Shown here: in pieces, positions 6,988 through 22,067 of the stretch | Layout of the letters: the number at the start of each line of letters is the position of its first letter | Position numbering within the stretch: the first letter of the stretch is position 1 | Assembly (NCBI RefSeq): GCF_947493125.1 | Contig: NZ_CANLQB010000014.1 | Coordinates: 1 to 64,000, forward strand | Length of the DNA stretch: 64,000 nt | Reading direction: 5' to 3' | Source of the DNA: an uncultured Roseobacter sp. | GTDB lineage: Bacteria; Pseudomonadota; Alphaproteobacteria; Rhodobacterales; Rhodobacteraceae | Notes under the pieces: model-generated | Database searches by the model: none | Seen by the model: only the letters and a program-made list of their open reading frames with translations | Told to the model about the DNA's origin: nothing | Program-made: the position numbers and the translations under genes

Positions 6988-7698
6988 TCATTCCGAATGC
7001 CCTGACGCTGCCCAAAGACTGCCACGGCGGATGATTTCGGTGACCTGCGGCACTTTGAGATCGTCCAACTCGTGACCAATGGAACAGTAAAAGACCCGGC
7101 CCTTGTCCCAGCGGCGTTTCCAGACCACGGGGATCACCGTGCCTTCGATCCACCACAGGTGATCGCCCGAGAAGGTCGTGGTGGCCAAGACCTCGTTCGA
7201 TGGATCAACCAACATGTAATACTGCTCGGAGGTCAGGCGGAAACTCTTGACGCCTTGCACGATAGGATCGTCCGGTTTGCAGATCGTCACGTCGTAGTCG
7301 ATGTAATCCTCACGCGGTTGCAGGTTGTCCGGCCAGCCCGGCGGGTGGGCCACGAACTGGCCACCGATCAGAAAATGATAAGTCGGCCGGTCGCGAAACG
7401 CGTCTCCCATGTGCCCGTGCCAGCCCGCAATCCCGCAGCCATCCCCGATCAGCTTGAGAAGCCCGTCCTCCTGCGGTTTGGTCATGTTACCGAATTCAGT
7501 GCGATGGCCGGAGCGGGCGGAAGACCAGATCGGCGTGATCAGGTCCATATCGGTCAACTCCGCCGGGCGCTCCAGCGGCTCCATCGTGTCGCAGACATCG
7601 ACAGTGAAACCGTTGTCCACCAGTAATGCCTTGTACCAGTCTGCAAAGGCGGTCGGCGCATGGCCTTCCCAACCGCCGACAAAAAGAACTGCTTTCAT
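6988..7698 (-). CDS. ThuA-like domain protein
   Basis: A 236-residue protein with the ThuA (glutamine-amidotransferase-like) fold seen in trehalose-utilisation and other sugar clusters. It starts MKAVLFVGGWEGH, with the conserved GGIxGWHGHMGD-type segment (GIAGWHGHMGDAFRD) near residue 90 and DHLWWIEGT...VFYCSIGH near 180-205. The biochemical role of ThuA proteins is not well defined; association with sugar oxidoreductases suggests modification or hydrolysis of an oxidised sugar. The gene overlaps the upstream dehydrogenase by 4 nt, so the pair is translationally coupled. Confidence 0.8.
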   Translation of the reverse strand: MKAVLFVGGWEGHAPTAFADWYKALLVDNGFTVDVCDTMEPLERPAELTDMDLITPIWSSARSGHRTEFGNMTKPQEDGLLKLIGDGCGIAGWHGHMGDAFRDRPTYHFLIGGQFVAHPPGWPDNLQPREDYIDYDVTICKPDDPIVQGVKSFRLTSEQYYMLVDPSNEVLATTTFSGDHLWWIEGTVIPVVWKRRWDKGRVFYCSIGHELDDLKVPQVTEIIRRGSLWAASGHSE

Positions 7699-8564
7699 GG
7701 GCTTTCCTTTCGCATGTAGTCCCGCATCGCGGCCATGTCCCGGTCGCCGTAGCCGCGCGCTTCGGCATCTCGCAGACGCGCGAGGGTTTCGCTCCCCTGC
7801 GGGAAGGCCACGCCGAAGTCACGCGCCAGCGCGGCCGTGATCTCCATGTCCTTGCGCGCAAGCGCGACAGTGAAAGTCACGTCGTGCGCCCGGTCATCAA
7901 GATAGAGCGGGCGGCGGTAGGACAGCATCGGGGCGGCCGCAGCACTGGCTTCGATCACGTCGAACGCCAGATCTGCTGCGATCCCGGCCTTGTCCGTCAG
8001 GCTCAGCGCCTCGGAAACGGTCTGGTTGAGCCCGTGGATCAGGGCGTTGACCGCCAGCTTCATGATCGCACCCGCACCGCGACGGCCAAGATAGACGGTT
8101 CGCTTCCCCATCGCATCGAACAAAGGTGCTAAAGCCGCACCGGTTTGTTCGGTGCAGCCGGCCATGATCAGAAGCTGCGCCTGGCGCGCCGCCTGTGTCG
8201 CACCGGATACGGGCGCGTCGATGATTGAGACCCCTCCGGGTGCAGCTTCAACGAGGGCGGCGATGTGATCCGGGCTCACGGTGCCCATCACCACCACGCA
8301 AGACGGCTCATTTACCGCCAGGATCCCGTGCTCGCCGAGGTGAAAGGCCTCGGACGAGGCGTCGTCTGCCAACATGCTGATCACCACATCGCATCTCTTG
8401 GCCAAATCGCGTGGTGTCTGTGCGACTGCGCATCCGGTCTCCTCCGCGAAGGCTTGCGCCTTGCTGGCGGTGCGGTTCCAGACAACCAGATTGAACCCTG
8501 CGCGGGCGATGTTGTGCGCCATGGGCGCGCCCATCCGTCCAAGTCCGGCAAGCCCAACACGCAT
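7695..8564 (-). CDS. NAD(P)-dependent beta-hydroxyacid dehydrogenase (3-hydroxyisobutyrate dehydrogenase family)
   Basis: A 289-residue protein of the 6-phosphogluconate/3-hydroxyisobutyrate dehydrogenase superfamily. GLAGLGRMGAPMA at residues 4-16 is the Rossmann dinucleotide motif and VVWNRT follows the second strand, favouring NADP. VIDAPVSGATQAA-like sequence (about 115-127) and GAGAIMKLAVN with the catalytic Lys (about 168-178) complete the family signature. It probably oxidises a beta-hydroxy acid or reduces a tartronate-semialdehyde-like intermediate produced from the imported sugar. Its ATG overlaps the stop of the ABC ATPase by one base (TAATG), and its end overlaps the ThuA gene by 4 nt. 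Confidence 0.85.
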   Translation of the reverse strand: MRVGLAGLGRMGAPMAHNIARAGFNLVVWNRTASKAQAFAEETGCAVAQTPRDLAKRCDVVISMLADDASSEAFHLGEHGILAVNEPSCVVVMGTVSPDHIAALVEAAPGGVSIIDAPVSGATQAARQAQLLIMAGCTEQTGAALAPLFDAMGKRTVYLGRRGAGAIMKLAVNALIHGLNQTVSEALSLTDKAGIAADLAFDVIEASAAAAPMLSYRRPLYLDDRAHDVTFTVALARKDMEITAALARDFGVAFPQGSETLARLRDAEARGYGDRDMAAMRDYMRKESP

Positions 8565-10075
8565 TATGCGGCCTGTCCGGATTTGATACCGGAAATCGCC
8601 TGGATCAGGTTGTCTTCGGTCACCTCTTCAGACGTGAATGTCCGCATGATCTGGCCGGAGTACATGGCGACGATCCGGTCCGAAACGTGCAGCACCTCGG
8701 GCATCTCGGAGCTGATCACCATCACCGCATACCCCTGCGCCGCCAATTCACGCAGCAGCTTGTGGATCTCGGATTTGCTGCCCACGTCGATGCCGCGGGT
8801 GGGTTCGTCCACGATCAGCACGTTGGGGTGCATCGACAACCATTTGCCGATGACGATCTTTTGCTGGTTGCCTCCCGAGAGGTTGCCCACCTGCTGTTTC
8901 CAACCGGGCGTGCGGATATCGAGCCGGTCGCGATATTGGTCAAAGATCGCGATCTCGGCTCCTTCGGCGACGAAGGGGCCAGCTTTGAGGTCATCAACCT
9001 GTGGCAGTGTCATGTTATCACGGCAGTTCATGCCCAATACCAACCCCTGGCCCTTGCGATCTTCGGGAACCAGCGAAATGCCTCGCGCGATGGCATCGGC
9101 AGGGGATGCGATGCGCACCTCCTCCCCGTCGAGCAGGATTTTCCCGGCCGAAGGGTCGCGCAGACCAAACAAGGTTTCCGCGATTTCCGTGCGACCCGCG
9201 CCGACGAGGCCGTAAAACCCCACAACCTCACCCCGGCGCACCTCGAAACTGACATCCTTGTAGAGCTTGCCGCAGCTCAGCCCGCGCACTTCGAGTGCGA
9301 CATCGCCCAGTTCGTGGTGCGAGGTGTTGCGGCTGAGGTCGAGCGTGCGCCCGATCATCATCTGCGTGACGGCTTCCTCGTCCGTGTCTGCGGTGGCCAC
9401 GGTGCCCTGATATTGTCCATCCCGCAGGATCGAGATGCGATCAGTGATCTTGAAGATCTCCTCCATCCGGTGCGAGATGTAGATGATCCCCACACCTTCG
9501 GATTTGAGGTCTGAAATCACGTCGAACAACACGACCTTTTCTGCGTCGGTCAACGAGGCCGTCGGTTCATCGAAGATCACCGCCTTGGCGTCAACGGTCA
9601 GGGCACGGGCGATCTCGACCATTTGCTGGTTCGCGATGGACAGGTCGCCGACGCGGGTTTTGGCGTCGAACCCGACATTCAGCTTTTTCAGAATCGCATC
9701 TGTCCGCTCGGTCAGCGTCGCCCAGTCGACGCGGCCAAAGCGCTTGCGGGGCAGTTCCCCGAGATAGATATTTTCCGCAACGCTCAGCTCTTCCGCCAGG
9801 CTGAGTTCCTGGTGGATGAACACGATCCCCTTTGCCTTGGCCTCCAGCGGGCCGGCCATGACAACCTTGTCGTTGCCCATGTAGATCGCGCCGCCGTCCG
9901 GTTGATAAATGCCGCCAAGCACCTTCATAAGCGTCGATTTTCCGGCGCCGTTTTCACCCATCAGGGCATGAACCTCTCCCGGCATGACCGAAAAGGAGAC
10001 CCCATCGAGCGCACGTACGCCCGGAAAGGTCTTGACGATGTCGTCGAGATGCAGAACTGGTTTCGCGTCGGTCAT
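8564..10075 (-). CDS. Sugar ABC importer ATPase (RbsA/MglA type, two nucleotide-binding domains)
   Basis: A 503-residue double ATPase that powers a CUT2-class sugar importer. Domain 1 has Walker A GENGAGKST near residue 38 and a Q-loop HQELSLAEELSVAENIYLGE. Domain 2 has the degenerate loop GLVGAGRTE and the strong signature LSGGNQQKIVIGKWL followed by IVDEPTRGIDVGSK. Asymmetric sites of this sort are normal for RbsA/MglA. The ATG at 10075 is chosen since MTDAKPVLHLDDIVKTFPGV is the canonical N-terminus; an extended upstream frame lies inside the permease gene. It overlaps the permease stop by 4 nt. Confidence 0.9.
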   Translation of the reverse strand: MTDAKPVLHLDDIVKTFPGVRALDGVSFSVMPGEVHALMGENGAGKSTLMKVLGGIYQPDGGAIYMGNDKVVMAGPLEAKAKGIVFIHQELSLAEELSVAENIYLGELPRKRFGRVDWATLTERTDAILKKLNVGFDAKTRVGDLSIANQQMVEIARALTVDAKAVIFDEPTASLTDAEKVVLFDVISDLKSEGVGIIYISHRMEEIFKITDRISILRDGQYQGTVATADTDEEAVTQMMIGRTLDLSRNTSHHELGDVALEVRGLSCGKLYKDVSFEVRRGEVVGFYGLVGAGRTEIAETLFGLRDPSAGKILLDGEEVRIASPADAIARGISLVPEDRKGQGLVLGMNCRDNMTLPQVDDLKAGPFVAEGAEIAIFDQYRDRLDIRTPGWKQQVGNLSGGNQQKIVIGKWLSMHPNVLIVDEPTRGIDVGSKSEIHKLLRELAAQGYAVMVISSEMPEVLHVSDRIVAMYSGQIMRTFTSEEVTEDNLIQAISGIKSGQAA

Positions 10076-11073
10076 ACCTTCAACTCCTCTTTGCCTCTGA
10101 CATTCAACTGTCGGTCCAGGAACAGCACGGCGATCAGGATCAGGCCGATCACAAGGTTCACCGTCGAGGTATCGGCCCCGATATGGCCGAGCCCCTTGCG
10201 CAAAAGCTGAATGGCAATGACACCGCCGAAGGTGCCGATGACCGACCCCGCGCCGCCTGTGATCTTTGTGCCGCCCAGCACCACAGCTGTAATGACCCAA
10301 AGCTCGTAGAGCTGTCCGTCATTGGGGTTCACCGATCCGGATTCGGAGTAGAAGACCACGGCGGAAAGTGCCGCCAGAAACCCAATGATGGCAAAGTTGA
10401 TCATCATGTGCGGGCCGACGCGGATGCCGGCGTTCACAGCCGCCTCGCGGTTGTCGCCTATGGCATATGCGTTGCGGCCGTGAACGGTCTTGGTCATCAC
10501 GAACCAAATCACGAGGGTCACGGCCAGCAGGAACCACGACGCTGTCGCAAGCCCCAGAAATTCAGCTTCGGCGAAATCGACGAGGGTCCAGTTGAGATGG
10601 CTCGTGGGGTTCTCGCCGTTGAACATGAAGACGATGCCCCGAAAGCCCAACATTGAGCCCAGCGTCACTATGAACGCATCCACGCCGGTCTTCCAGACAA
10701 TCAGCCCGTTCAACATTCCCAGCAGCGTTCCCACTGCAAGCGCCAGCAGGCAGGCCAGAGGGATCACCCAATCGCCGACACCCGCAAAGATCGGCCAGGT
10801 CATGCTGTCCAGCAAAACGATAGCAGCGATGGCATAGGTGGCGCCGACGCTCAGGTCGATGTTGCCGTTCACCATCACAATCGTCATGCCCATGGCGATA
10901 ATGCCGATCGGCGCCGACTGCTTGAGCAACAACAGCATGTTGTCGAAATCCATGAAGGCCTTGTCAGAGAGCGAGAGATATTCGCCCGCAACACTGAAGA
11001 AAATCAGCTCAAGAACGATAAAGCCCCAGATCGCGCTACCGGCCAACATCTTTGAGAGTCTACCCTTTTTCAT
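10072..11073 (-). CDS. Sugar ABC importer permease (RbsC type)
   Basis: A 333-residue inner-membrane permease of the BPD_transp_2/RbsC family with 8-10 hydrophobic helices. MGMTIVMVNGNIDLSVGATYA near residue 75 is the diagnostic motif, and DRQLNVRGKEELKV forms a charged cytoplasmic C-terminus. The ATG at 11073 (MKKGRLSK) is preferred as the positively charged start before the first helix, with GAGGGAAAAG just upstream. It is paired with a second, different permease at 11084, so the transporter probably has a heterodimeric membrane channel. Confidence 0.9.
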   Translation of the reverse strand: MKKGRLSKMLAGSAIWGFIVLELIFFSVAGEYLSLSDKAFMDFDNMLLLLKQSAPIGIIAMGMTIVMVNGNIDLSVGATYAIAAIVLLDSMTWPIFAGVGDWVIPLACLLALAVGTLLGMLNGLIVWKTGVDAFIVTLGSMLGFRGIVFMFNGENPTSHLNWTLVDFAEAEFLGLATASWFLLAVTLVIWFVMTKTVHGRNAYAIGDNREAAVNAGIRVGPHMMINFAIIGFLAALSAVVFYSESGSVNPNDGQLYELWVITAVVLGGTKITGGAGSVIGTFGGVIAIQLLRKGLGHIGADTSTVNLVIGLILIAVLFLDRQLNVRGKEELKV

Positions 11074-11083
11074 GCCTTTTCCC

Positions 11084-12058
11084 TCACGCGATCGGCGACC
11101 AGAGCTTGCCCCGCTTGGCCGCGATATCAAGCCAGACAGCAAGGATGATGATGACCCAGGTCACGACGAACTGGACGTAGAACTGCAGCCCCATGAGCAG
11201 CAGACCGTTCTGGATAAAACCAAGGATCAGCACGCCAATGACGGTCTTGAAGATCGTGCCCGCCCCCCCGAGAAGCGACGCGCCCCCCAAGATGACTGCT
11301 GCCAGAACTTCGAGTTCCAGCCCCTGCCCGACGGTGTTTTGGGACCCAAGTGACCGGCTCGCCTGGATGAGCCCGGCTGTGGCCACGCAGGCGGCCGAAA
11401 TGACATAGCAGGTGAAAACGGTGCGCGCCCGCTTGATGCCCGAAAAGGTTGCAGCAGTGCCGTTACCGCCCACAGCGTAGACCTTGCGACCAAAGGCGGT
11501 TTTCGCCAGCACGATGCCCAACAACGCCGCAAGCCCGGCAAAGATCACGATCGGGACCGGGATTCCAAGTGCGGTGCCCTGACCAAAGACGCTGAACCAC
11601 GTGCCTTCTTTGTCGGCGATGTCCATGTTCTGGCCGCCGGAATAGGTCAATGTCAGGCCGTGGATCGCTGACAGCATGCCAAGAGTGACAATCAAGGAGT
11701 TCAGCCTCAGATAGCCGACCAGAAAGCCGATGAACGCTCCAAGACACATGGTCATTGCAAACATGGCCGGAATGGCAAGCAACGGGCCGATCTGATCGTG
11801 CAAATCCAGCACCACGATGGTCGAGAATGACATCATCGATCCCACGGACAGATCGAGATTGCCGCTGATCACCACGAAGGTGACCCCAAGCGCCATGACA
11901 CCAAGAATGGCTGAGGACCGCACGACGCTGAACACGTTGTCGACGGACAGGAATTTTGGATTGGCGACGGTGAATGCGACGATGAACACTGCAAAGGCAA
12001 TCAGGATCCCCTGCTTTGCCAGAACGCTGCCGATCTGTTGCTTGGTCAGTGTTGCCAT
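11084..12058 (-). CDS. Sugar ABC importer permease (RbsC type), second subunit
   Basis: A 324-residue RbsC-type permease with the diagnostic MALGVTFVVISGNLDLSVGSMMS segment near residue 60 and GGASLLGGAGTIFKTVIG near 265. It lies 10 nt upstream of the other permease and 67 nt after the SDR gene. The two permeases are clearly homologous but not close copies, as in other CUT2 importers with two permease genes. Its ATG at 12058 follows a GGGAGGGGATC ribosome site. Confidence 0.9.
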   Translation of the reverse strand: MATLTKQQIGSVLAKQGILIAFAVFIVAFTVANPKFLSVDNVFSVVRSSAILGVMALGVTFVVISGNLDLSVGSMMSFSTIVVLDLHDQIGPLLAIPAMFAMTMCLGAFIGFLVGYLRLNSLIVTLGMLSAIHGLTLTYSGGQNMDIADKEGTWFSVFGQGTALGIPVPIVIFAGLAALLGIVLAKTAFGRKVYAVGGNGTAATFSGIKRARTVFTCYVISAACVATAGLIQASRSLGSQNTVGQGLELEVLAAVILGGASLLGGAGTIFKTVIGVLILGFIQNGLLLMGLQFYVQFVVTWVIIILAVWLDIAAKRGKLWSPIA

Positions 12059-12125: not shown

Positions 12126-12923
12126 TCACACCAGGGTCATGCCACCGTCGATCATGACGATTTGACCCGTCATGTAATCGCTATCCTTCGAGGCAAGAAA
12201 GGTGGTGGTACCCGTAATGTCCTGCGGGAGCGCCACACGACCCTTCAGGATTTCAGCTGAGAATTCCTCCATCGCCTGACCGGGTCGTTCTGCAGCGCCG
12301 ATCTCGAGCAGATCCTGATCGACCTGTTCCCACATCTCGGTGGCGACGACCCCCGGTGCGAAGCCTGTGACGGTGATATCATGCTTCGCCAGGTCCCGAG
12401 CACCTGACTGGGTCAGCGATACGACTGCGAATTTTGACGCGCAGTACGGCGCGACATTGTCAAAGCCCTGCCGACTGGCAATGGAGGCGGTGTTGATGAT
12501 TTTGCCACCGGTGCCCTGCGCAATCATCTGGCGCGCGGCTTCCTGCATTCCGATCATGCAGCCCAGCCCGTTGACGCTCATGATGAAATTCCAATTGTCT
12601 TCCGTGACATCCATGAAGTTCATCGGCTTGTTAACGCCCGCATTGTTGAACTTCACGTCCAGCCTGCCGAAGGCTTCGACCGTGCGCGCGACCATGGCCC
12701 GAACCTCGCCGCGATTGGTGACATCCACCTTTGCCCAGGCGACGGCATCGGCACGTCCGTTCATCCGGCTGCGATTGGCCTCTGCGACCTCGGCCACCTT
12801 GTCACTCTTGATGTCGGCGAAACAGACCTTCGCGCCTTCGTCGAGCAAGGCTTCTCCGATGGCACGACCAATGCCCTGTGCGGCGCCTGTCACGATGCAG
12901 ACACGGTCAGAAACACGTCCCAT
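12126..12923 (-). CDS. SDR-family dehydrogenase (polyol/sugar dehydrogenase-like)
   Basis: A 265-residue classical short-chain dehydrogenase: TGAAQGIGRAIG cofactor motif at about residues 12-23, NNAGVNKP near 92, catalytic Ser in NTASIASRQG and YCASK near 160. An Asp at the end of strand 2 (CFADIKS) favours NAD. It probably oxidises the imported sugar or polyol. It is most like the plus-strand SDR at 16033, sharing the unusual NKP, EDNW, APGVV-T--WEQ and SDYMTGQ blocks. ATG 12923 is chosen over the longer frame since MGRVSDRVCIVTG starts the fold directly and GGAGACG precedes it. It sits between the binding-protein and permease genes. Confidence 0.88.
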   Translation of the reverse strand: MGRVSDRVCIVTGAAQGIGRAIGEALLDEGAKVCFADIKSDKVAEVAEANRSRMNGRADAVAWAKVDVTNRGEVRAMVARTVEAFGRLDVKFNNAGVNKPMNFMDVTEDNWNFIMSVNGLGCMIGMQEAARQMIAQGTGGKIINTASIASRQGFDNVAPYCASKFAVVSLTQSGARDLAKHDITVTGFAPGVVATEMWEQVDQDLLEIGAAERPGQAMEEFSAEILKGRVALPQDITGTTTFLASKDSDYMTGQIVMIDGGMTLV

Positions 12924-12962
12924 GCCGCGTCTCCTTGAAAAGCTTGTTTCGGAAACAACCAA

Positions 12963-13004: not shown

Positions 13005-13964
13005 TTAGAACACCGGCTTGGTGAACTCGCCCATATTGTCCTGTGTTATCTTTGGCGTGTCGAAGTAGTTGAGGAACGGCAGCTCTTCACCCTTCAGCAC
13101 GTCGATCGCCGTTTTCAGGGCGGCTTCGGCGTCATCAACAGGGGACTGGTAGATCGACCCCCAGTATTCTCCTGCCGCCATCGCCTCGTAACCGACGGCG
13201 AAGTTGGTGGCCCCGACGAAGATGATGCCATCGCGGCCTGCAGCCTTGGCGGCGTTCAATGCGCCGACGCCCATGTTGTCGTCGCCTGCATAAACGCCGT
13301 CGATGTCGTCATACTTAACGAGGAAAGCTTCCATGACCTGCTGAGACTTCTCGCGGTTCCAGTCGCCCGGCTGGGTATCGACAACGGTGACGTTCGGGCA
13401 GACTTCGGGCAGGCGATCTTCGAAACCCTTGGCGCGCTCGATGGCGGTGGTGTAACCCGGCTGGCCCGTGATGTGGACAACCTGCGCTTCGTTCTCGATC
13501 CCCATGTCCTTGAACTTGTCGCACATGATTTCGGCTGAGCGTGCCCCTTGGGTGATGTTGTCAGGGCCGGAGAATGATTTCACGAAATCAAAGCCGGGTT
13601 CGGCGATGTTCGAGTTGGTGACGATGACCGGAATACCGGCCTGATGCGCCTTGCGGACGGCGGGGATGACTGCCTCGCCATTGGTCGGCCAGATGATGAT
13701 GGCGTCCACTTCCTGCTGGATCAGATCTTCCATCTGCGCAATCTGGCGCGCCACGTCACCGCCGGCATCCAAGACAATCGCTTCGACCGCATCGTTCGCC
13801 TCAGCGGCGGCGATGAAGGCCTTCTCATAGGTGGTCTGGTAGCTGTCGACACCGACGTTGTTTTGCGTGATGCCAATCTTCAACGTTTCGTGGCCCGCTG
13901 CAAAGGCGGTGCTAGTCAGCGCCACGATGGCGGTGGTTGCTGCAAGAATGTTGCGCATCTTCAT
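13005..13964 (-). CDS. Periplasmic sugar-binding protein of the ABC importer (RbsB type)
   Basis: A 319-residue type-I periplasmic binding protein (Peripla_BP_4). Residues 1-23 are a Sec signal peptide (MKMRN, hydrophobic core, AFAAG). The mature part starts LKIGITQNNVGVDSYQTTYEK and has the usual GVDAIIIWPTNGEAVIPA-like hinge segment and GVYAGDDNMGVGALNAAKAAG near 235. The ATG at 13964 follows GGAGGAGATCC, an excellent ribosome site. It is the first gene of the minus operon and defines the cargo of the importer, presumably a monosaccharide or deoxy/uronic derivative. The open frame upstream of the ATG is not translated protein. Confidence 0.9.
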   Translation of the reverse strand: MKMRNILAATTAIVALTSTAFAAGHETLKIGITQNNVGVDSYQTTYEKAFIAAAEANDAVEAIVLDAGGDVARQIAQMEDLIQQEVDAIIIWPTNGEAVIPAVRKAHQAGIPVIVTNSNIAEPGFDFVKSFSGPDNITQGARSAEIMCDKFKDMGIENEAQVVHITGQPGYTTAIERAKGFEDRLPEVCPNVTVVDTQPGDWNREKSQQVMEAFLVKYDDIDGVYAGDDNMGVGALNAAKAAGRDGIIFVGATNFAVGYEAMAAGEYWGSIYQSPVDDAEAALKTAIDVLKGEELPFLNYFDTPKITQDNMGEFTKPVF

Positions 13965-14097
13965 GTGGATCTCCTCCCGGGTGATAATGATAGCTCTTTT
14001 TTCAGGGCGCCCCTCCCGGACGCCCACCACCACTCGGATCTCCGAGCGACTGATCGCTATCATGCAAAGCTTGCCACGGCAGCAACGCAAGAATTGT

Positions 14098-14132
14098 GTC
14101 CATTTAGGACGAAAAAATATCCAATTTGGATA
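14098..14132. promoter_or_regulatory. Tandem operator-like palindromes in the divergent sugar promoter
   Basis: TATCCAATTTGGATA at 14118-14132 is a perfect 7-bp inverted repeat with a 1-nt centre. GTCCATTTAGGAC at 14098-14110 is a second palindrome. They share the core TCCA-WTT-GGA pattern (TCCATTTAGGA at 14099 and TCCAATTTGGA at 14120), offset by 21 bp, about two helical turns. They lie in the 220-bp region between the binding-protein gene and the HTH-SBP regulator and are likely its binding sites. Confidence 0.6.
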
Positions 14133-14184
14133 AATTCGCGGTACGTTGAGAGCCTCATTTTGAACATTTTCGGGGGTGCGGTCC

Positions 14185-16014
14185 ATGCGTCGTAAAGAAT
14201 TATCCAAGCCGGACAATACTGCCGCGACACGCAAGCCGAACGCAGGAAAAAGGCACAACGTCAAGATGAATACCATGGGAGGACACACACAAGCCAGACC
14301 GGTTGCGCCACAGGCGCAAACCGAGACGCTTGAGATTTTGTCCTTTCTGGAAGAAGTCAGCGACGAGCTTGAAGGTGCGCTCGACATAATTGCGCCTAAC
14401 GCGCATCTGCGCATGGCTTTGCACCTCTTGCAGGGCCACTTCGAAGCCAAGACCATCACCCCCACATCCCTGATCAGCGCCAGCCGGGTGCCCTATGCAA
14501 CCGCCAATCGTCGCATGAGAGAGATGATTGAGGACGGCCTGATCGAACAGCGTCCGCGAACGAAAACGGGCAAAAGCTTTTCGATGCATCCCGGCGAAAA
14601 GCTAATGGCGCAATGGATGCAGATCTCTGGTCGTATTCGCCGCCTCGCCGAAACGCGCTTCGGCGGCGAAACGCAGGATCAGACCACGCGGGATTACTAC
14701 TTTGGCGGAAGCTACGCTGCCGCCCGGTCCATTGCCCCGCTCCGCGTGCTCTCGGAGCCGCTGAAGGTGCCGGGCGGCATCCGCGTGCTTGTCCATGGTG
14801 ACCCGACTTTCATGGTGATGGACAACCTCAAGCGGCAGTTCGAACAGATCGTGGGCACAGATATCAGCCAGCGCGCCTTTTCTATCGACCGTCTGCGCGA
14901 AGAGGCTCTGCGTAATGTTCAACGCGAATCCAGCCGTTACGACATCATCGCGGTTGATCTGCCCTGGATCGGGGAATTTGCCGAAAAACAGGTTTTGATG
15001 CCGCTCGACGAGATCATGGACCTTACGCGCCTCGATCCTGCGGACTTCCACACCGCAGGCTGGATGGCGGCGCATTGGGGCGGTCGGGCATACGGCGTAC
15101 CCGCGCAGACCACTCCCGAGCTGTTGTTTTACCGTCGGGATCTTTTTGCCGAAGCGGGGCTCGAACCGCCCGCGACCACCGATGCTCTGCTCGAAGCCGC
15201 GCGCTTGCTTCACCAACCACAGCGCGGTCGCTACGGCATAGGGTGGAACGCGGCGCGGGGGACGGCACTTGGTCACACCGTTCTGATGATAATCGCGGAT
15301 TTTGGCCAGCCCATTCTGGATTTACCGGAAAACGCCGGTGGGTTTGACACATCACGTTTAGCCGAAAACACCTATCGCGCCACCATCGATACCGAAGCGG
15401 GTCTGCAGGCAGCGGAATTCCTCATGGAGCTTCTGCATTACTCACCCGCCGATATCCTGTCGATGTCCTGGTATGAGCGGATGCGCCCGTATGCAGCCGG
15501 GAATATCGCGATGGCTTACGGCTATACGTTGCTTGCGCCGTACTTCGAGCTGGATGAAAGCTCGCCGGCCTATGGCCAAACCGGCTATTTGCCACACCCG
15601 GCAGGACCGGGCGCCAGCCCTGTGGCGCCCGTGGGCGGCTATGTCCTGGGCATTCCGGCCAACCTGTCGCCGGACCGAGTGCCCGCGGCCGTCGAGGCAC
15701 TGACGGTCTTTACCTCGCCGGAAGCGCAAAAGCTTTATGTGCAGAATGGCAGCCGGACAAATCCACGCTACTCGGTCGCCTCCGACCCGGAAGTGCGCCG
15801 CGCCTCGTCAATCTTCGAGGCGGTGGACGCGATGTCCTGGCGCGACGAGCTTCAATTCTGGCCGCGTCCGCCGGTGCCGGAAATCGGGGGCATCATCCAG
15901 ATCTGCGGCGAGGAATTTCACGATATGCTGCGCGGGATCACATCTCCGCGGGACGCTTTGCGCAAGGCCCAATCCCGGGCCGATGCGCTGATCCAATCAA
16001 ACGGGACGCCTTAA
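14185..16014 (+). CDS. Winged-helix regulator fused to a solute-binding-protein domain
   Basis: A 609-residue protein with an unusual architecture. Residues about 55-145 form a MarR/GntR-like winged helix: SLISASRVPYATANRRMREM is the recognition region and GLIEQRPRTKTGKSFSMH the wing. Residues about 190-605 match family-1 extracellular solute-binding proteins of ABC importers (MalE-like), with YDIIAVDLPWIGEFA, GRAYGVPAQTTPELLFYRRDLF and VGGYVLGIPANL blocks. There is no signal peptide or membrane segment, so this binding domain is cytoplasmic and most likely senses the substrate. It is first in the plus operon and divergent from the sugar importer, with paired palindromes between. ATG 14185 is the best start; GTG 14176 is possible. 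Confidence 0.8.
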   Translation: MRRKELSKPDNTAATRKPNAGKRHNVKMNTMGGHTQARPVAPQAQTETLEILSFLEEVSDELEGALDIIAPNAHLRMALHLLQGHFEAKTITPTSLISASRVPYATANRRMREMIEDGLIEQRPRTKTGKSFSMHPGEKLMAQWMQISGRIRRLAETRFGGETQDQTTRDYYFGGSYAAARSIAPLRVLSEPLKVPGGIRVLVHGDPTFMVMDNLKRQFEQIVGTDISQRAFSIDRLREEALRNVQRESSRYDIIAVDLPWIGEFAEKQVLMPLDEIMDLTRLDPADFHTAGWMAAHWGGRAYGVPAQTTPELLFYRRDLFAEAGLEPPATTDALLEAARLLHQPQRGRYGIGWNAARGTALGHTVLMIIADFGQPILDLPENAGGFDTSRLAENTYRATIDTEAGLQAAEFLMELLHYSPADILSMSWYERMRPYAAGNIAMAYGYTLLAPYFELDESSPAYGQTGYLPHPAGPGASPVAPVGGYVLGIPANLSPDRVPAAVEALTVFTSPEAQKLYVQNGSRTNPRYSVASDPEVRRASSIFEAVDAMSWRDELQFWPRPPVPEIGGIIQICGEEFHDMLRGITSPRDALRKAQSRADALIQSNGTP

Positions 16015-16032: not shown

Positions 16033-16842
16033 ATGGACCCCAATCGCCTGAAAGGTAAGAACATCCTGATCACCGGTGCCGCGCGCGGTATGGGTGCCGC
16101 CAATGCCGAAGCCTTCGCTGCGCAAGGCGCCAATGTGTGCCTTGGCGATCTTGATCTCGATGAAGCGCAAAAGATGGCGGACCAGATCAACGCCGCCGGA
16201 AACGGAAAGGCTATTGCGGCAAGAATGGACGTCACCAAACGGGAAGACAATGCAATCGCCGTCGCTGCCACGGTGGACGCATTTGGATCGATCAATGTGG
16301 GTCTTTTCAACGCAGGCCTCAACAAACCCCGGTTTTTCATGGATATCGATGAAGACAACTGGGACATGATCATGAACGTCAACACTAAGGCAATGTGGCT
16401 TGGCATGCAGGAGACCGCCCGCCAGATGATCAAGCAAGGTCCCATGGAAGATCATCCCTACAAGCTGATCAACGTGGGCTCCATCGCGTCGCGCAAGCCA
16501 CTGGTGGATGTGACCGTCTATTGCACGTCGAAATACGGCTGTCTGGCGCTGACTGAATGCGGCGCTCTCGGACTGGCTGAGCACAACATCACGGTGAACG
16601 GCTATGCCCCCGGTGTCGTGGTCACGCCGCTATGGGAACAACTCGACAAGGACCTCGTGGAGATCGGCTTCAAGGAACGCGAAGGCCAGGCCTACGAGGA
16701 CATCGTCGAGAGCAATCTCGTCATCAAGCGCGTATCCTACCCCAAGGACATCATCGGCACGGCCTCGTTCCTTGCGTCCGACGACAGTGACTACATGACC
16801 GGCCAGATGATCTCCATCGATGGCGGCTGGGTTACGAAGTAA
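16033..16842 (+). CDS. SDR-family dehydrogenase, paralogue of the minus-strand SDR
   Basis: A 269-residue classical SDR. TGAARGMGAANAEA near residue 15 is the cofactor loop, CLGDLDLD after strand 2 favours NAD, FNAGLNKP near 95 replaces the common NNAG by FNAG, and YCTSKYG near 160 holds the catalytic Tyr and Lys. GGAGGAAAGACC ends 1 nt before the ATG. It lies 18 nt after the regulator gene. Long shared blocks with the SDR at 12126 suggest a duplicated pair acting on related sugars or successive oxidations. The substrate is not identifiable from sequence. Confidence 0.88.
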   Translation: MDPNRLKGKNILITGAARGMGAANAEAFAAQGANVCLGDLDLDEAQKMADQINAAGNGKAIAARMDVTKREDNAIAVAATVDAFGSINVGLFNAGLNKPRFFMDIDEDNWDMIMNVNTKAMWLGMQETARQMIKQGPMEDHPYKLINVGSIASRKPLVDVTVYCTSKYGCLALTECGALGLAEHNITVNGYAPGVVVTPLWEQLDKDLVEIGFKEREGQAYEDIVESNLVIKRVSYPKDIIGTASFLASDDSDYMTGQMISIDGGWVTK

Positions 16843-16907
16843 AACACCAAACCTCTGATTTTCAATTGAAACGGATGCGCTCTGCCGCACCCGAAAGGAG
16901 CCTATTC

Positions 16908-18206
16908 ATGTCACGTGCCTTGATGCCGAACATGCTGACCCCCCAAGATCTCGAACCCAACTGGGAATGGCGCGAACGCCTGCCCGCCTGGGGCCATACC
17001 TCGGTCGATTTTGAACGCCGCATCGATCATGACCGCCTGCGCCGCTATCGCCTCGCCCGCACGCGCCAGTCGTTGCAGAACTCAAACGCCGGTTCGCTGC
17101 TCTTGTTCGATGTGAACAACATCCGGTATGTCTCGGCCACCAAGATCGGTGAATGGGAACGGGACAAGATGTGCCGTTTCTGCCTGCTCACCGGTGATGA
17201 CAGCCCCTATGTCTGGGATTTCGGCTCTGCCGCCGTGCACCACCAGCGCTATTCAGACTGGCTGGAGCCGGATCATTGTCTTGCCGGCGTTGTCGGCATG
17301 CGCGGTACCATTCCTCCGGAATTCGGTCTGATGCGAAAATACGCCAAGATGATCGCGCAACTGATCAAGGATGCGGGCATGGCCGACATGCCCGTCGGTG
17401 TGGACTATGCGGAAACCGCCATGTTCCACGCACTTAAGGAAGAAGGGATCAATGTGGTCGACGGCCAGCAGATCATGCTTGCCGCGCGCGAGATCAAGAA
17501 CTGGGATGAGATCCAGTTGCTGACGCAGGCGGCCGCCATGGTCGATGGCGTCTACCACATGATCTACGAGGAACTGAAACCCGGTGTGCGCGAAAGCGAT
17601 ATTGTGGCCCTGTCGAACAAGATGCTTTACGAGATGGGCAGCGATGACGTCGAGGCGATCAACGCCATTTCTGGCGAACGCTGCAACCCGCACCCGCATA
17701 ACTTCACCGACCGGCTTATTCGCCCCGGCGATCAGGCCTTCTTTGACATCCTGCAGAGCTATCAGGGCTATCGCACATGTTATTACCGCACGTTCAACGT
17801 CGGCCGCGCCACGCCTGCGCAGAACGACGCCTATGTGAAGGCGCGAGAATGGATCGACGCGTCGATTGCCATGATCAAGCCCGGTGTCACCACCGACAAG
17901 GTGGCCGAGGTCTGGCCCACCGCCGAGTCATTGGGCTTCCCAAACGAGGACGCAGCCTTCGGCCTTCAGTTCGGGCACGGGCTGGGCTTGGCGCTGCACG
18001 AGCGTCCGATAATCAGCCGGGCCGTGTCCCTCGATCACCCGATGGAGATCCAGACCGGCATGGTCTTTGCGCTGGAAACCTACTGCCCGGCCGCGGATGG
18101 CTATTCGGCCGCGCGCATTGAGGAAGAAGTCGTGGTGACGGAGACCGGTTGCGAGGTCATCTCGCTCTTCCCCGCCGAAGAATTGCCCATCGCGAACCGG
18201 TATTGA
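16908..18206 (+). CDS. M24-family (pita-bread fold) aminopeptidase/creatinase-like protein with altered metal site
   Basis: A 432-residue protein with the N-terminal creatinase domain (about 45-190) and C-terminal M24 domain (about 200-430). Comparing with dinuclear M24 peptidases, the ligands read Asp280 (FFDIL), Cys291 where the second Asp is expected (GYRTCYYRTF), His357 (FGHGLG), Glu390 (LETYCP) and Glu405 (ARIEEEV). So one metal ligand is changed, as in M24 members that are not peptidases (creatinase, DddP-like lyases). It is embedded between SDR genes, which suggests a role in the sugar pathway or hydrolysis of an N-conjugated substrate, not general proteolysis. ATG 16908 follows GAAAGGAGCC. 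Confidence 0.8.
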   Translation: MSRALMPNMLTPQDLEPNWEWRERLPAWGHTSVDFERRIDHDRLRRYRLARTRQSLQNSNAGSLLLFDVNNIRYVSATKIGEWERDKMCRFCLLTGDDSPYVWDFGSAAVHHQRYSDWLEPDHCLAGVVGMRGTIPPEFGLMRKYAKMIAQLIKDAGMADMPVGVDYAETAMFHALKEEGINVVDGQQIMLAAREIKNWDEIQLLTQAAAMVDGVYHMIYEELKPGVRESDIVALSNKMLYEMGSDDVEAINAISGERCNPHPHNFTDRLIRPGDQAFFDILQSYQGYRTCYYRTFNVGRATPAQNDAYVKAREWIDASIAMIKPGVTTDKVAEVWPTAESLGFPNEDAAFGLQFGHGLGLALHERPIISRAVSLDHPMEIQTGMVFALETYCPAADGYSAARIEEEVVVTETGCEVISLFPAEELPIANRY

Positions 18207-21007: not shown

Positions 21008-22067
21008 ATGCGGGTTACAACAGTCTGCCTTGATCCACTGACCGGCAGGCGATTGCATCGCAATCGCTGAGAGGTTGGCCAAGAACATCTTTCAAGTGCA
21101 CGGGGTTGCCGAGGATGGGACGGTTGCGTTCAATCGATCATTGAGGCGCGCTCAGCTTTTGGCGTTCTTCAAAGAGCTTGAGCCCTGTCTCGTCGGTATG
21201 GAAGCCTGCGGATCAAGCCACCACTGGGCGCGGCAATTCCAGAAGCTGGGCCATGAAGTCAGGCTGATGCCAGCAATGTATGTGAAGGCCTACGTCAAAC
21301 GTGGAAAGTCTGACGCCATCGACGCAGAGGCGATCTATGAGGCTGTAACGCGTCCTACGACGCGATTTGTCGCGATCAAAACCGAGGAACAGCATGGTGT
21401 CCTATTCCTCCACCGTGCCCGAGACATGGTCGTGCGGCAGCGGACCCAGCTCAGCAACATGTTACGCGGCCTGTTGGGCGAGTTTGGTATTGTGATTGCC
21501 CAAGGGATTGGGAGATCCGTGAAGTTTGCAAAGGTGGTGCTGGACGGCGACCTCCCGAGCATTCCCAATGTCGCCATCGATGTGTTGACGAACCTGTGCA
21601 ACCAGATGGTCGCTCTGCACTTGCGCATCCTCTGGTACGATAAACGCATCCTGCTTTAAGGTCGGAGAGACCGCCAGGTTATGCTGTTGCGAACCATTCC
21701 CGGGGTCGGTCCGGTCAAGGCCTCGGCCATCGTCGCCACAGCGGGCGACGGGCATCAATTCCGCAATGGACGAGAATTTGCTGCCTGGCTGGGACTGACG
21801 CCTATCAACCGATCCAGCGGTGGCAAGGAACGCCTTGGGCGCATATCCAAAATGGGAGACAGATACGTCAGACGCCTGTTGGTGGCGGGCGTGACGGTGT
21901 GCCTGAGACACATGAAGGAGAATCCGGACCGCGTTGACCCATGGGCAATCACCCTGTTGGAGCGAAAGCCTCCAAGGTTAGCAACCGTGGCCATGGCCAA
22001 TAAAACCGCTCGGATCGTCTGGGCCGTTCTGACACGAAACGAACGCTGCCGACCCTATGCGGCATAA
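21008..22067 (+). pseudogene. IS1111-type transposase, disrupted (copy 2)
   Basis: Homology starts at ATG 21008 (MRVTTVCLD), is interrupted by a ~40-nt hairpin module ending in TGA 21068-21070, and resumes in another frame at TTG 21075 with LAKNIFQVHGV. The DEDD domain follows (VGMEACGSSHHW, VRLMPAMYVKAYVKRGKSDAIDAEAI). An in-frame TAA at 21657-21659 interrupts the coiled middle. The same frame then gives the helix-hairpin TIPGVGPVKASAI and the transposase_20 domain with FAAWLGLTPINRSSGGKERLGRISKMGDRYVRR, ending at 22067. As read, it needs both a frame change at the N-terminus and stop readthrough, so it is probably inactive. Confidence 0.85.
21049..21067 (+). repeat. Perfect 8-bp stem hairpin inside IS1111 transposase start (copy 2)
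   Basis: GCGATTGC, loop ATC, GCAATCGC. It occupies the same position as the hairpin at 5179-5199 and both are preceded by ACCGGCAG and followed by a stop codon and an AGAGG motif. Two stem pairs differ between the copies (TT/AA against GC/GC) yet pairing is kept. Confidence 0.8.

Follow-up and report, generated by a model that had tools for sequence, protein, structure and literature searches.

We describe here a 609-residue protein, encoded at positions 14185-16014 of the 64,000-nucleotide stretch of Roseobacter sp. DNA that we analysed (the window), which by its sequence is an intact fusion of a winged helix with a MalE-type solute-binding domain and carries no export signal. We propose, at a probability of roughly 0.6, that it is a ligand-released repressor of both of the divergent units at its promoter, the importer/dehydrogenase genes and itself. 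The evidence comes from the domain structure, from a gene order that is kept in related genomes, and from a palindromic operator that recurs in the shared promoter.

A winged helix joined to a family-1 solute-binding domain

The gene and its parts are as follows.

14185..16014, + strand: HTH-SBP fusion regulator, 609 aa (ORF, Pfam, orthologue search, synteny)
14305..14670, + strand: DNA-binding domain, residues 41-162, a MarR-like winged helix with flanking helices (Pfam, AlphaFold2, Foldseek)
14494..14532, + strand: residues 104-116, predicted recognition helix (placed by means of the models, with a role assumed from MarR)
14773..16005, + strand: ABC family-1 (MalE-type) solute-binding domain, residues ~197-607 (Pfam, PDB search, Foldseek)

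The frame is open from 14185 to 16014, and a GTG at 14176 and Met28 (ATG at 14266) are other possible starts. The initial annotation had read this frame as a helix-turn-helix (residues 55-145) fused to a complete family-1 binding domain (190-605), and Pfam SBP_bac_1, the winged-helix model and Foldseek all bear this out with nearly the same boundaries, about 42-159 for the winged helix and 197-607 for the solute-binding domain. SBP_bac_1 matches residues 246-516 far above its cut-off (E=1.6e-27; 97.8 bits against a gathering score of 26, covering profile positions 44-307 of 307), as does SBP_bac_8 at residues 219-540 (E=6.9e-20), and all 17 of the 17 family members match SBP_bac_1 at E<=1. The regulator finds 57 distinct PDB sequences at E<=0.01, mostly sugar-type binding proteins, with 5iai at the top (E 3.8e-27, residues 202-601). 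An AlphaFold2 model of the full protein, made from an alignment of 46 sequences from the window and related loci, has a mean pLDDT of 71.8, with values below 50 mainly at residues 1-49, 160-183 and 523-560; its top Foldseek matches are family-1 solute-binding proteins, 5iai again coming first (E 8.2e-24, TMt 0.79).

The N-terminal domain is MarR-like but lies below the Pfam cut-offs. In the full-length protein the helix-turn-helix passes no curated cut-off (MarR_2, E=0.019), the isolated domain scores 18.8 bits against a MarR_2 cut-off of 27 and is not assigned by Pfam to MarR or MarR_2, and an NCBIfam search with the regulator gave insignificant matches only. Among 46 isolated N-terminal domains, 45 match MarR_2 at E<=1, the best at 9.2e-6. 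Residues 41-162 modelled alone reach a mean pLDDT of 90.8, with four helices (42-65, 73-86, 93-99 and 104-116) ahead of a wing (120-124/132-136) and a long helix (138-159). The Foldseek matches of this model are weak, three of them at E<=0.001, and the first, the plasmid centromere-binding protein 4rs8, is level with the MarR protein 3e6m (E 9.1e-4); many MarR structures follow at E ~1e-3, which points, with weak scores, to a MarR-type winged-helix fold, and many of the 50 matches listed are taken to be of the MarR family, in part from their titles.

The N-terminus has no signal-peptide-like stretch, as the initial annotation had also claimed: the maximal 13-residue hydropathy within the first 60 residues is 0.5, compared with 2.0 and 1.5 by the same measure in two periplasmic solute-binding proteins, and the regulator thereby lacks the signal peptide of an exported family-1 binding protein.

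Gene neighbourhood

The regulator is flanked by the following genes.

13005..13964, - strand: the divergent importer's periplasmic binding protein, RbsB-type (Peripla_BP_4); predicted target (synteny, PDB search, Pfam)
12126..12926, - strand: SDR_a, short-chain dehydrogenase, start approximate; predicted target (synteny, family match)
11084..12058, - strand: importer permease 1, family read from sequence; predicted target (ORF and synteny)
10072..11085, - strand: importer permease 2, start approximate, family read from sequence (ORF and synteny)
8564..10100, - strand: importer ATPase, RbsA-like, start approximate, family read from sequence (ORF and synteny)
7695..8564, - strand: 3-hydroxyisobutyrate-dehydrogenase-like protein (synteny, family match)
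16033..16842, + strand: SDR_b, short-chain dehydrogenase, 18 bp past the regulator; predicted co-transcribed target (ORF, synteny, family match)
16899..18206, + strand: M24-fold protein, start approximate, a well conserved partner (synteny, co-occurrence)

The order ATPase-permease-permease-SDR-RbsB, divergent from regulator-SDR-M24, is kept almost throughout 37 close loci (L036-L072). The divergent RbsB gene is present in 36 of them, the remaining locus being cut by a contig end, SDR_b lies directly downstream of the regulator in 37 of 37, and M24 stands behind SDR_b in 32; four of the other five end at a contig edge and one has M24 elsewhere in the cluster. The importer's own binding protein is a Peripla_BP_4 protein, of another family than the regulator's sensor, which rules out that the sensor was copied from the local importer, in line with what had been supposed at the outset.

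The M24 gene and the regulator also travel together. In 295 genomes of the same family, the M24 gene is found in 46 at E<=1e-150, 44 of which have a regulator match, compared with eight of the 249 genomes without it, one of these eight being the plain solute-binding protein of G123. The importer can be swapped for an unrelated one, yet regulator, SDR_b and M24 can remain together (L075, L077, L195 and L196). The M24-fold protein is 80-98% identical across the 32 close loci in which it follows SDR_b. Its nearest PDB entries are 4s01 and 4rzy (E 5e-21), which we take to be DddP, and it has YRTCYYRT aligned to CVDISRT of 4s01; because the Asp of the latter, presumably a metal ligand, is missing, the protein may not be an ordinary peptidase.

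Two side observations concern these genes. One locus (L205, 8600-14115) has an M24 gene of 92% identity with no regulator nearby and an operator copy scoring 20.7 upstream, and its operon partners read like an alpha/beta-hydrolase and the E1 and E2 subunits of a dehydrogenase complex. At the edge of the gene cluster in the window, 21075-22067 holds two successive ORFs that presumably resemble pieces of an IS110-type transposase.

A conserved operator in the shared promoter

The predicted operators, none of which has a strand, are listed here.

14095..14113: operator O1 (predicted), score 11.9 (motif scan)
14116..14134: operator O2 (predicted), score 27.8, a perfect palindrome (TATCCAATTTGGATA) centred 21 bp from O1 (de novo search and scan)
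14150..14168: O3, weak candidate operator, score 7.9, 34 bp from O2 (motif scan)
14199..14217: operator O4 (predicted), score 16.6, overlapping regulator codons 5-11 (motif scan)

A de novo search for any 4+4 gapped palindrome in 37 divergent regions (the window and 36 loci) found ATCC-N5-GGAT in 20 of the 37, against a shuffle mean of 0.70; over 20 shuffles, the top count of any palindrome was 3 or 4 per shuffle. Refinement gave TATCCA-N3-TGGATA, and at a score threshold of 5 each of the 37 regions has a pair of such sites, spaced 21 bp in 36 regions and 22 bp in the other. Wider scoring took in 117 loci from both collections, of which 14 were dropped as duplicates or too short, and a pair with a spacing of 20-22 is found in 102 of the 103 distinct loci (threshold 8). 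The 37 regions were the training set of the PWM, and the 80 later loci include some of them again. Scores of at least 20 number 127 in 26,070 nt of promoter region versus one in 1,240,847 nt of flank over 79 distinct loci, a count that includes some loci of the training set. The conserved operator ties the regulator to the promoter that it shares with the importer, and its presence in the promoters of linked genes agrees, at the level of sequence, with a one-component transcription regulator.

O4 is found in 88 of the 103 loci (threshold 8), where the reading frames split 76 and 12 and the protein stretch hardly aligns between loci; since the site is read in two frames, it is the DNA and not the peptide that is kept. 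Counting the window, 89 loci bear O4: all 89 have an open start codon ahead of it, 81 of them with a ribosome-site-like sequence, and 53 have a start with such a sequence downstream of it, so that O4 most likely, though not certainly, lies within the regulator coding region. In the window the upstream ATG has no match to the ribosome-site patterns used and the ATG at 14266 does; if translation begins at Met28, O4 would be part of the 5' leader.

O1 (11.9) and O3 (7.9) are weak in their own genome. Measured to the start codon of rbsB, the centre of O1 is about 140 bp away and that of O2 about 161 bp; measured to the regulator's start codon, the distances are about 81 bp for O1 and 60 bp for O2. 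No sigma-70-type promoter was found in 13900-14320, and a terminator scan was likewise negative; the sites are therefore not placeable relative to -35 and -10 elements, and repression is not told apart from activation by their position. The regulator is, from its site count, a local and not a global one, since its own genome (4.83 Mb) holds two exact copies of the palindrome, one of them at the regulator locus, and, when up to two mismatches are allowed, 44 sites where a control gives 40. A further match inside the M24 gene at 17102 (score 13.9) recurs in the M24 gene of L206 and probably reflects coding conservation.

A proposed mechanism and its alternatives

The model that we favor is that of a cytoplasmic one-component regulator whose MarR-like winged helices would bind TATCCA-N3-TGGATA as a dimer. 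Two dimers would sit side by side, with centres 21 bp or two turns apart, in the promoter common to the regulator and the RbsB-type importer operon, and a further dimer would bind at the start of the regulator's own gene. The ligand-free protein would shut off transcription in both directions, and with it the SDR and M24 genes downstream of the regulator. The MalE-type domain, presumably taken from a CUT1 importer, would close on the polyol- or diol-like compound brought in by the importer, or on one of its early products, and this closure would move the winged helices and release the DNA. The ligand class is a guess by analogy, made because of the solved kin of the sensor, the SDRs and RbsB: relatives of the sensor include a solute-binding protein named for sorbitol (4rya), those of both SDRs are led by acetoin/diacetyl reductases and 2,3-butanediol and sorbitol dehydrogenases, and those of RbsB include the CUT2 proteins 4rs3 and 4rsm. 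We take 5iai to have been solved with ribitol, and 4rs3 and 4rsm with small polyols.

Several other readings have to be weighed against repression. The protein could be an activator that, when bound to its ligand, recruits RNA polymerase for the importer operon from O1 and O2 and represses only itself through O3 and O4. The asymmetry of the sites would suit this, as the extra sites towards and inside the regulator gene agree with an activated importer side and an autorepressed regulator side. The winged helix, however, is MarR-like, and the MarR family consists mostly of repressors; nor does the negative promoter scan offer a promoter against which an activating position could be placed. A precedent exists in SgrR, which controls sgrS and negatively autoregulates according to PMC13060122, and we regard activation, though unlikely, as the main alternative to the repressor.

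It is improbable that the sensor has ceased to bind a small molecule and serves dimerisation or a protein contact, for example with the importer ATPase. Such a role would accord with an importer whose binding protein is of another family and with a ligand candidate reached by analogy, but the solute-binding fold is kept, the domain is strongly conserved among the regulator orthologues, and its nearest periplasmic cousin (L201, 41% identity) belongs to a CUT1-type importer operon. Least credible, and rejected here, is an exported solute-binding protein with an odd N-terminus, although this is how databases label the regulator (26 of 34 plasmid records read 'extracellular solute-binding protein' and one a periplasmic component): there is no hydrophobic N-terminal stretch, a confidently modelled winged helix stands in front of the binding domain, and operators occur in the gene's own promoter and beside its paralogues.

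Relation to known regulators

The initial annotation had called the joining of a family-1 fold to DNA binding unusual, and this stands for the MalE/family-1 domain but not for the type-II fold in general: E. coli SgrR and Vibrio cholerae DsvR likewise have an N-terminal HTH, a C-terminal ABC-type solute-binding domain (SBP_bac_5) and autoregulation (PMC13060122), and LysR-type regulators join an HTH to a type-II periplasmic-binding-protein fold (PMC5882156). An HTH with an SBP-type sensor is thus known from SgrR and LysR, and the MalE/family-1 sensor is the unusual part. More generally, PMC9602780 places SBP Pfam domains also among the sensor domains of transcriptional regulators and in cytosolic proteins. 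No description of a winged-helix/SBP_bac_1 regulator was found among the papers listed by searches of open-licence PMC literature, which is weak evidence of absence.

SgrR consists of SgrR_N and SBP_bac_5, both matched by the SgrR control and neither by the regulator described here, and since blastp and hhalign detect no sequence relation between the two, kinship with SgrR is rejected. By analogy the regulator is one that works like SgrR, without being a member of the SgrR family. Unlike the LysR type, it has a full family-1 solute-binding protein of ~410 residues, and neither HTH_1 nor LysR_substrate, presumably the Pfam names of the LysR family, is among its Pfam matches at E<=10, subject to the HMMER filters. 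Btr of Bacillus subtilis, which combines an AraC-type HTH with a FeuA-like domain, is likewise cytoplasmic, with an SBP-like sensor, and adjoins the importer that it controls, although Pfam matches to an AraC-type HTH or a FeuA-like domain are absent here. The winged-helix fold, with its wing and following long helix, is common to the regulator and the MarR family, but the regulator's MarR_2 score is below the curated cut-off and it carries a separate sensor domain. With MalE-type family-1 proteins (5iai, 1eu8, 4rya) its C-terminal domain shares the complete fold and family membership; in contrast to them it has no export signal, is fused to a DNA-binding domain, and adjoins an importer with another binding protein.

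Were the proposed model correct, proteins now catalogued among transport components would turn out to be gene switches, and a class of soluble sensors with easily screened ligands and an operator readable from sequence would give a direct route to the substrate. That route concerns an importer/dehydrogenase/M24 set that is conserved and common in the Roseobacter group. The fusion also suggests how a periplasmic nutrient receptor became an intracellular sensor, and offers a natural design for biosensors.

Distribution, paralogues and origin of the sensor

Regulator matches at E<=1e-30 occur in 52 of 295 same-family genomes, the regulator's own included, of which G123 has a plain periplasmic solute-binding protein (read as L202) and G133 and G159 are cut by contig ends. 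Three others (G253, G062 and G199) have one stop inside the matched stretch, but in these the frame stays open for 603-706 codons and extends at least as far back as query residue 25. The distribution is patchy, the regulator being absent from the sole other genome of the same genus that was searched (G266). A GTDB scan kept at least 80 regulator loci of 67-90% identity; the matches listed are mainly from the Roseobacter group, the closest among them from an uncultured Marivita (90% identity), and also include Hoeflea, Stappia, Roseibium, Chelativorans and one bin labelled Ectothiorhodospiraceae. At E<=1e-40, and with the regulator's own genome counted in each sample, matches are found in seven of 337 genomes across the class, one of them SBP-only (L199), and in eight of 349 across the phylum, two of them SBP-only (L203 and L204). 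Plasmids carry 34 copies at E<=1e-30, 32 with at least 80% coverage, in carriers that include Phaeobacter, Tritonibacter and Rhizobium; besides the 27 labelled as above, one is called a hypothetical protein, four rows have no label and two records have no annotation. Fused orthologues in dozens of genomes, and on plasmids, dispose of a misassembly of two separate genes, which the initial annotation had named as grounds for giving up the fusion.

More distant regulators of 32-54% identity, 25 in 23 loci (L073-L095), adjoin other importers or dehydrogenases. At 39-49% identity the motif precedes importer or SDR_b genes. A motif scoring at least 9 lies within ~420 nt upstream of 14 of the 25 paralogues and is absent from the upstream stretch of the other 11, and one paralogue had only 73 nt to search. 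The whole 23 loci (~0.43 Mb) contain 11 matches scoring at least 20, where the match rate in orthologue flanks predicts ~0.35, and several of these precede SDR_b or permease operons; L091 has no match of 13 or more, and L093 a single one that is not near the regulator. In two 1.4 Mb genomes, whose regulator is 32% identical, sites of 26.7-27.2 bits mark both the regulator start and the stretch preceding SDR_b-M24, although at a G+C of 0.36-0.37 the AT-rich motif is somewhat likelier by chance. Outside the class, a regulator of 53% identity is accompanied by a motif pair scoring 27.8 and 21.5 at a spacing of 21 bp. At L193 the motif lies inside genes, scoring 23.8 within that of a permease and 19.3 within that of the regulator. 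One genome (G090) has an M24 operon with a 20.7-score motif upstream and yet no regulator match at E<=1e-30, so that another protein may read the motif there or the regulator may have been missed. In the group-B paralogues L080, L082, L084, L085 and L086 an operator-like palindrome (13.5-21.1) lies ~0.5 kb into the regulator gene, which could be coding conservation or a real site.

We consider it probable that these proteins form a widespread, unrecognised regulator family, alphaproteobacterial with a few others and mislabelled as extracellular, that arose through one capture of a CUT1 binding protein by a winged helix and whose paralogues came to serve unrelated CUT2 importers and pathways under one retained operator code, TCCA-N3-TGGA. 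If so, motif and sensor together could make the substrates of many orphan importers assignable.

The likely parent type of the sensor is represented by L201 (6743-8092), a periplasmic solute-binding protein with a signal peptide that is 41% identical to the sensor domain. In a tree of 44 binding domains L201 joins all 36 fused proteins with a support of 100/100, while the 36 without L201, itself a long branch, form one group at only 83/63. The simplest reading of this tree is that the sensor arose by one capture of a CUT1-type binding domain, a reversal in L201 being the alternative. L201 adjoins CUT1-type permeases and two ATPases, and its genome (G014) also carries two fused regulators.
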